Source: an uncultured SAR86 cluster bacterium
GTDB taxonomy: Bacteria; Pseudomonadota; Gammaproteobacteria; Magnimaribacterales; Magnimaribacteraceae
Assembly: GCA_902537425.1 (NCBI GenBank)
Contig: CACBBD010000001.1
Span: 62,001-126,000 of the forward strand
Direction: 5' to 3'
Length of the DNA: 64,000 nucleotides
Shown one piece after another: positions 25,991 to 31,460 of this stretch. Position 1 is the stretch's first letter, and every line of letters begins with the position of its first letter. Both the position numbers and the translations under genes were made by a program. The notes under the pieces are model-generated. The model was not told the DNA's origin. It saw nothing but the letters and a program-made list of their open reading frames with translations, and searched no databases.

Positions 25991-28165
<2,175 letters not shown>

Positions 28166-28180
28166 CTAAAGCAAAATATG

Positions 28181-28211
28181 AAAAGGGGTTAATTTATATT
28201 AACCCCTTTTT
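28181..28211. terminator. Bidirectional rho-independent terminator between katG and pnuT
   Basis: AAAAGGGGTTAAT pairs perfectly with ATTAACCCCTTTT around a TTAT loop, with a T-run on the katG strand and an equivalent run on the other. It starts 16 bases after the katG stop. The right arm includes the stop codon and last codons of the convergent pnuT gene, so one hairpin ends both transcripts. Confidence 0.9.
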
Positions 28212-28750
28212 GTTTGAAGCATAGATCTTTTCCATGCCAGGTAACCAAATACTATTATTATTAAATAACCAGTAAAAAGAAAAGCCGTTATGTATAGCTC
28301 TCTTGAGATAAATAGAAATACTGATACAAAATCAATTACAAACCAATAAATCCAATTTTCAAGCAATTTTTTAGCTACCATATAAGTGGCTACAACAGCA
28401 CCCCAAGTGGTAAATGCATCAAAATATGGAAGCGATGCGTTAGTATATTTAGCTAATAGATAACCAGAAATGATTGTCAAAACAAATATCAGCATCAATG
28501 ATTTTAGATGATTACTAAAATTCCAATTTGTCACAAGTAATTCAGTTTCTTTTACTTGCCACTGCGACCATCCATATAAAGCCATCAAAATATAAAATAT
28601 TTGCAAAAAGGCCTCCATGTAAAGTCCTGCTGAGTACATTATGAAGAAGTAAAGCGATGAGCTTAAGATAGCCGCAAGCCAACATAGAATATTTTGCTTA
28701 ACTGCAAGTAAAAGATAAATAATTGCTAAAGAGACAGCAAGAATCTCCAT
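28199..28750 (-). CDS. pnuT: PnuC-family transporter, probably thiamine-specific (PnuT)
   Basis: A 183-residue inner-membrane facilitator with about seven hydrophobic segments and the family motif LYGWSQW (about residues 57-63). PnuC-family members import vitamin precursors that are then trapped by phosphorylation. The gene name PnuC usually implies nicotinamide riboside, but here it lies 9 bases after a TonB receptor whose leader is a TPP riboswitch. In comparative genomics that context marks PnuT, the thiamine-specific branch. Specificity is inferred from regulation, not from residues. Its 3' end lies in the shared terminator. Confidence 0.85.
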   Translation of the reverse strand: MEILAVSLAIIYLLLAVKQNILCWLAAILSSSLYFFIMYSAGLYMEAFLQIFYILMALYGWSQWQVKETELLVTNWNFSNHLKSLMLIFVLTIISGYLLAKYTNASLPYFDAFTTWGAVVATYMVAKKLLENWIYWFVIDFVSVFLFISRELYITAFLFTGYLIIIVFGYLAWKRSMLQTKRG

Positions 28751-28759
28751 TGATGTTAT

Positions 28760-30853
28760 CTAAAATTCATATCGGAATGTTAGACCATAATTACGTGGAT
28801 CCCCATGACGTTCATACAAAGTATCTTCGAAAGCAGGAGGTTCATTACCGAAATAAAAACCTCTTAAAGAATAATATTCATCAAAAATATTTCGTATCCA
28901 GAAATTTAAATTAATTTTATCTTTCTTATAAATCATATTTATATTTGTAAGGATGTAATCATCGGAAGTATTATTATGAGAATCTGAATAATAAAAGTCA
29001 CTTTTGCCATTCAAGTCCAATAGTAATTCCAGATTATTTGATATGTCCCAGCTCAATCCTGCAGAAAAGCTATAGTCAGGTGCATGTGCTTGCTCCCTCC
29101 CCTCTAAATCAGGTCTTGATTGGTACTGTCTTATTTCTGTTTCGAGTATTCCTAAGTTTAAAAACATACTGATAGTGTCTGAAATTTCAGAATTTAGACT
29201 TAACTCGGCTCCATAATTTCTACCTTCAGCTGCATTTTTTGTTAAAAATAAGAATGTATTAGGGTCTTGTGGGTCGACTTGAGTTGATGACAAAACTTGT
29301 TGATCTCTTCTGTCTGAATAAAAAATTACTAAATCTAAAAAAGTTTTTGAAGAAAAGAAATATTTGCTTATTCCAAACTCGTAGTTGGTTAGGTATTCAG
29401 GTGAATAAGATACTGCTTCAATTAGTGAAGAACTATTTAAACCAGTTCCTAAGTTAAAACCACCCTGTTTGTAACCCCTTGCAATGCTCAGATAGTATTT
29501 AAGATCATTGTCTAAAGAGTTAATGAGAGATATTTTTCCTCCATTCATTGAATCATCAGGTGTGAATAATTCTTCATTTGAATCTAAATAATCAGCATCC
29601 CAATCCTCCCATCTAAAACCAAAAGAGAGCTTTAATGTTTCGCTTATTAGGTAATCCAAATTTCCAAAAAGGGATTTGCTTTCTGAAGAATAATCACTAG
29701 AGAAAAATGATTCGCTGTAGAAAGTTCCGAAACCATCGTTTGGATCTCCGTAAGCCCCATCATCTTTTCTATCATTGGATTCATCAATTTCATAAAATGA
29801 AAATCCAGCTATCCACTGTATTTGATTAGAAAAATTTGTTTCCAATTTATTGGATAGTATTCTAAGTTCTATATTAGAAGTTTCTCTATGCCTAAGAGTT
29901 TCAGAAAAATAATCATAGACATAGGGAAAGTGTGACTGTGCATTACCCCAATCGGCATCGTAACTAAAAACTACATCTGTATCTGTTTTAGAATATAAAA
30001 CCTTGAGAGTATTTAACCTGTTTATAAATCCGAGATTTACACCAAGAGCTCTTGTATCTTGAGAGTCCATACCAGGTCTATCTGAAAGGGTATTTAGAGA
30101 GCCATCAATAGTCCATATATCTGCAGGATCATCAAAATTGTTATCAAAATAGACTAGATGAAAAGAGGTGGCATCATTAATCGACCAATTAGTCTTGAGT
30201 CTAAGAGACTGCTCATCTTTCCTGGAAGTGTCATCTCTGTTTAAAAATAAATTTTCCCTGAACCCATCAAAATCTTCTTTCCTTATACTTAATCTCGATT
30301 TTAAGCCTTTTGTGAAAGGAATATTAATTGACGCACTCAAGTCGTTCCTTCCATAATTACCGATGGTTATTTCTCCGTTTGCTTCAAATAAGTCCTTAGG
30401 ATCCTTAGTTTTAATATATATCATACCTGCAAGTGAACTAGCACCCATCCTAGAACCTTGTGGACCTCTATAAACTTCTACTTGGTCAATATCGTATACA
30501 GAAGCTATACCTGCTTGTCCTGAAAAGTCTATGTCGTCAATCAAAAATCCCACTGAAGAATTTGGAGTTCCTTCGTATCCAGATCGTTCTCCAATTCCTC
30601 TGATCTGAAAATATCGCGGTCTTGAATCACTAGCGGCAAAATTAAGATTTGGAATTAAGTAAGTGATATCCTCAAAATGCTTGTATTGTTTTTTTTGGAT
30701 ATCTTCATCATTAACAAGAATGAGACTGCTATCAACTTCACTTAAATTGGTGTCCCGCCAATCACCACTTACGACAATCTCATCAATTGCTTCAGTATGA
30801 GCAGGAAAGAGAATAAAGAAAACTGAAAAAAATAAAAATATATGTTTTAGCAT
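28760..30853 (-). CDS. TonB-dependent outer membrane receptor, probable thiamine receptor
   Basis: A 697-residue outer-membrane barrel with a signal peptide (to about residue 22), a short IDEIVVSGD TonB-box-like start, a plug domain (QIRGIGERSG, IDDIDF, QVEVYRGPQGS) and a C-terminus ending in aromatic Phe (TFRYEF). Expression is controlled by a TPP riboswitch overlapping its ribosome-binding site, so the ligand is very likely thiamine or a derivative taken up across the outer membrane using TonB energy. pnuT follows in the same transcript for the inner-membrane step. Confidence 0.9.
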   Translation of the reverse strand: MLKHIFLFFSVFFILFPAHTEAIDEIVVSGDWRDTNLSEVDSSLILVNDEDIQKKQYKHFEDITYLIPNLNFAASDSRPRYFQIRGIGERSGYEGTPNSSVGFLIDDIDFSGQAGIASVYDIDQVEVYRGPQGSRMGASSLAGMIYIKTKDPKDLFEANGEITIGNYGRNDLSASINIPFTKGLKSRLSIRKEDFDGFRENLFLNRDDTSRKDEQSLRLKTNWSINDATSFHLVYFDNNFDDPADIWTIDGSLNTLSDRPGMDSQDTRALGVNLGFINRLNTLKVLYSKTDTDVVFSYDADWGNAQSHFPYVYDYFSETLRHRETSNIELRILSNKLETNFSNQIQWIAGFSFYEIDESNDRKDDGAYGDPNDGFGTFYSESFFSSDYSSESKSLFGNLDYLISETLKLSFGFRWEDWDADYLDSNEELFTPDDSMNGGKISLINSLDNDLKYYLSIARGYKQGGFNLGTGLNSSSLIEAVSYSPEYLTNYEFGISKYFFSSKTFLDLVIFYSDRRDQQVLSSTQVDPQDPNTFLFLTKNAAEGRNYGAELSLNSEISDTISMFLNLGILETEIRQYQSRPDLEGREQAHAPDYSFSAGLSWDISNNLELLLDLNGKSDFYYSDSHNNTSDDYILTNINMIYKKDKINLNFWIRNIFDEYYSLRGFYFGNEPPAFEDTLYERHGDPRNYGLTFRYEF

Positions 30854-30930
30854 GCAATTCCTCCGCCATTATTGTATGGATCAGGTTCAAAGAGTTTCAA
30901 TGATCTCAGGCCGAAGCCACCCCTTTGCAA
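30854..30930 (-). promoter_or_regulatory. TPP (thi-box) riboswitch with embedded Shine-Dalgarno
   Basis: Read on the minus strand, the conserved thi-box elements occur in order: GGGGTGGC, CTGAGA, TTTGAACCTGATC, then GGCGGAGGAA. TGCAA at the 5' end (30925-30929) pairs with TTGCA (30853-30857) to close helix P1. The GGAGG ribosome-binding site is part of the aptamer and P1 reaches the A of the ATG, so TPP binding should hide the initiation site directly. No terminator hairpin separates it from the gene, which fits translational control. Confidence 0.93.
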
Positions 30931-31055
30931 TAAACTAATTTTAGCAAAGCCTTTTAGACTTAACCAGAAACTTATCTTCAAATAGTTTTCTCGTGAAAAA
31001 AAATATAAAATGTATAAGCCTTTCAAATTAATTCATAAATTAGCTGCTATAAAGA

Positions 31056-31460
31056 ATGTCGAATTCTCTTGAAAACTGTGATGTGAGGTCTATATCAATA
31101 GGCTCCAAAATTTCACTTCTTTTTAAAGAAAGTGCAATATTTGAAGAGCAAACTGCCCTCATAGGAATAGTAGAAACCGTTAAATATCCAGGTGATAAGA
31201 ATTCTGACTTTCCAGAAATACTGGATTTGCTTGATAAGATATGGATTCAGATTGGTGAAAATAAAAGAATATATGGAGATAAAAAAAGGAGTAATGACTC
31301 GATCAAGGAAGAAATATTTTTTAGATTAAGCAAACAGATGATAGAAGATTTTAAGCGTACAGAAATGATGTACGCCGGCGTTAATCATCCCAAATATAAT
31401 ATTAAAACTAAAGAAATAGCATTATCTACAGTGAAAAGTCTCGCAGAAGATTTTAAATAA
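31056..31460 (+). CDS. Hypothetical protein (134 aa)
   Basis: Soluble protein with no signal peptide, membrane span or recognised motif. The N-terminal half is mixed strand and helix, and the C-terminal half (from about residue 70) is charged and helical. It is followed after 35 bases by a second unknown small gene on the same strand, and is divergent from the thiamine receptor operon. Codon use looks like that of its neighbours, supporting a real gene. Function unknown. Confidence 0.55.
   Translation: MSNSLENCDVRSISIGSKISLLFKESAIFEEQTALIGIVETVKYPGDKNSDFPEILDLLDKIWIQIGENKRIYGDKKRSNDSIKEEIFFRLSKQMIEDFKRTEMMYAGVNHPKYNIKTKEIALSTVKSLAEDFK

Follow-up and report, generated by a model that had tools for sequence, protein, structure and literature searches.

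In some riboswitches that bind thiamine pyrophosphate (TPP), the purine-rich 3' segment of the aptamer acts as the ribosome-binding site, which is sequestered within the aptamer core (Barrick and Breaker, 2007; PMC2258182). The outer-membrane thiamine receptor OMthi and the transporter PnuT have been tested genetically in Bacteroides (PMC5613172). For the SAR86 cluster, a 2024 report describes the receptor gene omr1 with a nearby TPP riboswitch in metagenome-assembled genomes, as well as vitamin B1 auxotrophy (PMC10881298). The locus described here is on the minus strand of a 64,000-nucleotide window from an uncultured SAR86 cluster bacterium (contig CACBBD010000001.1, positions 62,001 to 126,000) and consists of a TPP aptamer followed by genes for a TonB-dependent receptor and a PnuC-family transporter (Table 1). 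It is very probably a thiamine-import operon, encoding a receptor of the omr1/OMthi type and a carrier of the PnuT type, under the control of a TPP-responsive translational OFF switch.

Table 1. Features of the riboswitch-controlled operon, in window coordinates
Feature	Position	Strand	Basis
TAAAAT, predicted extended -10 box (TGCTAAAAT)	30938..30943	-	Sequence inference; would place the transcription start at about 30930-30933, adjoining P1
TPP riboswitch aptamer (RF00059)	30841..30934	-	cmscan 57.7 bits, gathering score 54.3, E = 1.1e-8, full model length matched
P1 5' strand, TGCAA	30925..30929	-	Rfam alignment; P1 covariation
P1 3' strand, TTGCA, with the A of the start codon as last P1 base	30853..30857	-	Direct reading; Rfam alignment; covariation
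Shine-Dalgarno GGAGG inside the aptamer, P4-P5 segment; AGG is the P4 3' strand	30860..30864	-	Rfam alignment
TonB-dependent receptor, 697 amino acids, predicted outer-membrane thiamine receptor (omr1/OMthi type)	28760..30853	-	Pfam Plug and TonB_dep_Rec
PnuC-family inner-membrane transporter, 183 amino acids, predicted PnuT	28199..28750	-	PF04973, E = 2.7e-49; TIGR01528, 65.5 bits; linkage to TPP aptamer
Terminator-like hairpin, 13 pairs, 3' of the operon	28181..28210	-	Lies between the operon and the convergent katG-like gene; chance alone would give the region about one site of this kind

The initial annotation had recognized the conserved TPP segments on the minus strand and proposed a search with the Rfam covariance model. 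That search returned a score above the gathering cut-off, and the match is the only one to RF00059 in the 1.34-Mb draft genome that holds the window. The conserved core elements CUGAGA, CUUUGAACCUGAUCC and GGCGGAGG are recovered in the aptamer, as are helices P1, P2, P3, P4 and P5. Direct reading places the two strands of P1 exactly where the annotation had them. It had also put GGAGG and the A of the start codon within the fold; both positions stand, with the refinement that pairing within GGAGG is confined to AGG (in P4, with CCT at 30885-30883). G30864 is unpaired, and G30863 lies opposite a G, the Rfam consensus having at that position a U able to pair. The receptor ATG, read directly at 30853-30851, follows GGAGG after a spacer of six bases. 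The start codon is therefore no more than 15 nucleotides from the aptamer core and the ribosome-binding site is within that core, which is the anatomy of direct translation attenuation.

Conservation of this arrangement was assessed in 35 genomes of one family, which includes the source genome and is assigned to SAR86 by its nearest named relatives. The majority were assembled from single cells or metagenomes, which gives absences less weight than presences. The aptamer is present in 27 of them (above the cut-off in 23), and in all 27 loci it is followed by the TonB receptor gene and, except in L025, where the contig breaks off within the receptor, then by the PnuC-family gene. The receptor start codon lies 76-91 bases past the first base matched by the Rfam model, and inside the matched stretch, in every locus. 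Rfam searches gave six further named SAR86 loci with an aptamer above the cut-off, some perhaps from the same genomes as the 35, and judging from the match coordinates their receptor starts also fall inside the aptamer.

The alignment of the 27 loci supports the structure as well as the position. Columns of P1 are paired in 95.6% of cells and those of the whole structure in 95.7%, and sliding the partners by one to three columns reduces the latter figure to 33-55%. Changes on both sides are found in two of the five P1 pairs. One P1 pair is U-A in 14 loci, C-G in 9 and U-G in 2, and another is A-U in 21, G-U in 4 and C-G in 1. P1, whose 3' strand includes the first base of the start codon, is thus maintained as a helix despite changes in its letters. 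P4 and AGG are invariant, AGG being present in 27 of 27 loci, as expected for both a ligand-binding core and a Shine-Dalgarno sequence. The G at 30863 that completes GGAGG is found in 26 of the 27, while most TPP aptamers of the class have GUAGGGA or GUAGGAA. Locus L147, from another family of the same order, has GGAGGAATTGCATG exactly. That the aptamer is a chance or decayed match devoid of function is extremely improbable; its score is near the cut-off and P3a is nearly lost, as might be expected of such a match, but 27 genomes keep it with P1 covariation and an identical gene order, and the six named SAR86 loci have it too.

The transcription start probably lies beside the aptamer. A TANNAT hexamer ends 7-12 bases upstream of P1 in all 27 family loci, compared with a background of 27% for the looser TANNNT in similar upstream windows, and the source genome and its nearest relatives have the extended -10 form. 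A consensus promoter scan did not report this box because the scan demands a -35 element. From the conserved hexamer, transcripts would begin beside P1, and the 5' leader would probably consist of the aptamer alone. It is plausible, and about evenly balanced in our judgement, that the SAR86 leader has been cut down to the aptamer, with the -10 box just 5' of a P1 that is closed by the start codon, and that the aptamer has been retuned from GUAGGGA to GGAGGAA at the cost of one P4 pair. One segment would then be both ligand scaffold and full-strength Shine-Dalgarno sequence, in a minimal riboswitch produced by genome streamlining.

The proposed mechanism is a translational OFF switch by direct occlusion, in which transcription would start next to P1 to give a leader of about 80 nucleotides. 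When TPP is low, P1 would be weak, leaving GGAGG and the ATG accessible to the ribosome. Binding of TPP would stabilize both P4, in which the Shine-Dalgarno AGG is paired, and P1, in which the first base of the start codon is paired, and initiation at the receptor gene would drop. The second gene would be controlled through the shared mRNA and translational coupling. The suggestion in the initial annotation that the switch acts directly on initiation, with no separate expression platform, fits this anatomy and its conservation across the family. It is possible, but rather unlikely, that the switch is mainly transcriptional, acting through Rho-dependent termination once translation stops or, in the manner of E. 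coli thiC, through pausing near the start codon, and that occlusion is secondary. Pausing at the thiC start site is described in one study (PMC5234074), and dual control by TPP has been described as well (PMC10907184). Against this alternative, no terminator-like site was found between the aptamer and the receptor gene, the single one in the region being after the second gene. Rho dependence is compatible with direct occlusion.

Folding of the ligand-free sequence with ViennaRNA gave a probability of 0.03-0.05 for P1 and 0.44 for P4. Median unpaired probabilities over the 27 ligand-free sequences were 0.24 for the Shine-Dalgarno sequence and 0.50 for the AUG. These values agree with a start codon that would be partly free until TPP stabilizes P1. 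Ligand-free folding was dropped as proof of switching since the Shine-Dalgarno sequence is largely paired in the model, and it neither proves nor excludes the mechanism.

The initial annotation suggested that the cell scavenges thiamine, and the inventory of thiamine genes supports this. ThiC was found in three of the 35 genomes, none of which has the aptamer or a Pnu gene. ThiE exceeds its cut-off only in genomes that lack the aptamer, with the exception of a 49-amino-acid remnant with stops in G004. Neither thiC nor an intact thiE was found in any of the 27 aptamer-bearing genomes, and thiamine pyrophosphokinase was found in none of the 35. ThiL, on the other hand, is over the cut-off in 28 of the 35 genomes and is present in the source genome. 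The pattern is complete in G029, a single contig estimated to be 95% complete, which has the aptamer, the Pnu gene and ThiL, with no thiC, no thiE over the cut-off and no pyrophosphokinase. Without ThiE the precursors cannot be joined, so the cell would need intact thiamine, and with ThiL but no pyrophosphokinase a thiamine kinase would be required. A ThiK-like kinase is encoded by the third gene of the operon in G009 (L051, 3351-4208), which overlaps the end of the PnuC-family gene; it scores 68 bits against an equivalog cut-off of 299, and its presence supports a role of the operon in thiamine uptake. Candidates for ThiK in the other genomes, sought with the G009 kinase as query, were partial matches of 25-41% identity within the broad APH family, and none was assigned. 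The best candidate in the source genome, located beside a panC-like gene, is scored as well by aminoglycoside kinase models as by ThiK.

The remnant in G004 is a decayed thiD-thiE (990-1248 on the minus strand of L172, G004:C50:58400-60600) in which ThiD residues 1-48 continue directly into ThiE residues 157-198. It adjoins a penicillin-binding-protein-like gene, the one also found at this place in G001 and G003. G004 has the uptake operon, whereas G001 and G003, from the same genus, lack it and carry thiC and thiE instead, a pattern that resembles a replacement of synthesis by uptake. Whole-genome searches of G001, G003 and G016, in which thiC and thiE are present, gave no TPP riboswitch match at E <= 0.001, and synthesis in these genomes appears to operate without TPP control or with a diverged form of it.

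Profile libraries alone would label the second gene of the operon a nicotinamide riboside transporter, as its product passes the NCBIfam PnuC equivalog model TIGR01528 (65.5 bits, cut-off 42.45). This model need not separate substrates, and the context points to thiamine. A Pnu gene is present in 27 of the 35 genomes, in single copy in each, and 26 of these genomes also have the aptamer. In the remaining one (G025) the Pnu match is a fragment where a contig ends, and the contig of the single aptamer-bearing genome without a Pnu match (G015) stops within the receptor. All 26 complete cases have the thiamine-type context of TPP aptamer and TonB receptor. This strict linkage, together with the absence of the operon from the three thiC genomes, argues for the reassignment of both the PnuC-like gene and the receptor to thiamine that the initial annotation proposed, and the genetic context lends strong support to thiamine as the substrate. 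It is quite improbable that the operon imports another compound, such as nicotinamide riboside or a thiamine precursor like hydroxymethylpyrimidine (HMP), with the TPP switch sensing the status of the pathway. Such an arrangement would accord with the PnuC model score, and TPP switches are found on precursor transporters in marine bacteria as well (PMC10881298). Precursors could not be joined without ThiE, however, ThiL is retained, and the Pnu gene is invariably linked to the aptamer and absent from genomes with thiC; the argument of a paper on the nicotinamide adenine dinucleotide (NAD) riboswitch is that the riboswitch class predicts the substrate of the Pnu protein (PMC7749635). The diagnostic residue of the WxxWxxx(D/N) motif is D in all SAR86 copies, but WxxWxxxD was abandoned as a marker of thiamine specificity because a TPP-linked copy elsewhere (L106) has N.

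Several points weigh against a TPP-controlled thiamine importer at this locus. The aptamer exceeds the gathering score by only 3.4 bits, its P4 is short by one pair and its P3a is vestigial. Four of the aptamer-bearing relatives score under the cut-off, and the start site has diverged in two loci, L011, where the start region differs, and L024, where the start is a few bases later than in relatives. The shuffle control for covariation takes no account of relatedness. The ligand-free Shine-Dalgarno sequence is already mostly paired, so the amplitude of the switch is uncertain in a folding model that omits tertiary contacts and the ligand. Finally, no clear ThiK, as a kinase for the step from thiamine to thiamine monophosphate, was found in the source genome, an assembly estimated to be only 74% complete.

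The receptor represents a family of its own, distinct from the other TonB receptors of the genome. Its closest named relatives are from SAR86 cluster genomes, the best being 99% identical. With a profile built from the 27 linked receptors, the window receptor scores 1315 bits, and none of the other receptors in the genome exceeds 161. As the window receptor is itself included in that profile, a fairer comparison is provided by riboswitch-linked receptors from three further gammaproteobacterial families and from another family within the order. These have the window receptor as their best match (313-379 bits), with a wide margin over the next best of the genome's own receptors (at most 161 bits). 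A phage search with the receptor returned only distant TonB receptors.

Downstream, the operon converges with a large gene (26027-28165) that we take to encode a katG-like catalase-peroxidase. Upstream, about 120 bases separate the aptamer from the start of a divergent gene for a protein of 134 amino acids (31056-31460). The upstream neighbour of the aptamer varies among SAR86 genomes, and in G034 and G020 it is presumably a rubrerythrin-like gene.

These observations outline a vitamin B1 strategy for a very abundant surface-ocean lineage, in which intact thiamine would be obtained through one dedicated transporter pair governed by one feedback switch, through which thiamine probably turns off its own uptake. 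They also correct a likely automatic annotation of the second gene as a nicotinamide riboside transporter. The switch itself is compact and conserved, and since ligand and ribosome binding would compete for the same bases it could be a handy model of direct occlusion.

The architecture is not new, and every part is of a known kind, because direct sequestration of the ribosome-binding site (2007) and the SAR86 omr1 riboswitch (2024) have already been described. As in the direct attenuation of Barrick and Breaker, the ribosome-binding site comes from the conserved purine-rich 3' segment, the start codon is within 15 nucleotides of the core and there is no separate platform. The SAR86 element differs in belonging to a gammaproteobacterium, in having GGAGGAA for the usual GUAGGGA and in a P1 that extends to the A of the start codon. 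A sample of the class yielded 74 TPP aptamers, of which about 50 precede thiC and three precede a TonB receptor with a Pnu gene. In at least 12 of the 74 a candidate start codon falls within the aptamer, although the criterion is rough, admitting some doubtful starts and overlooking others. The gammaproteobacterial omr1-pnuT switches L095, L106 and L131 share the aptamer, TonB receptor and Pnu gene with the SAR86 locus. Unlike it, they have a separate platform, and the receptor start is 168-198 nucleotides after the aptamer start, outside the aptamer.

The OMthi (BT2390) and pnuT (BT2396) operons of Bacteroides resemble the SAR86 operon in the TPP riboswitch, the TonB-dependent receptor and the use of PnuT for thiamine (PMC5613172). 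In addition, Bacteroides thetaiotaomicron possesses tnr3 and a biosynthesis operon (PMC5613172), whereas searches of the SAR86 source genome turned up no thiC, thiE or thiamine pyrophosphokinase, and ThiL would complete TPP there. The closest precedent shares with this locus the lineage, the receptor assignment, the kind of riboswitch and B1 auxotrophy (PMC10881298). To omr1 and its nearby switch, as described in that report, the present analysis adds the predicted PnuT, the overlap of aptamer and ribosome-binding site, and the pathway gaps.
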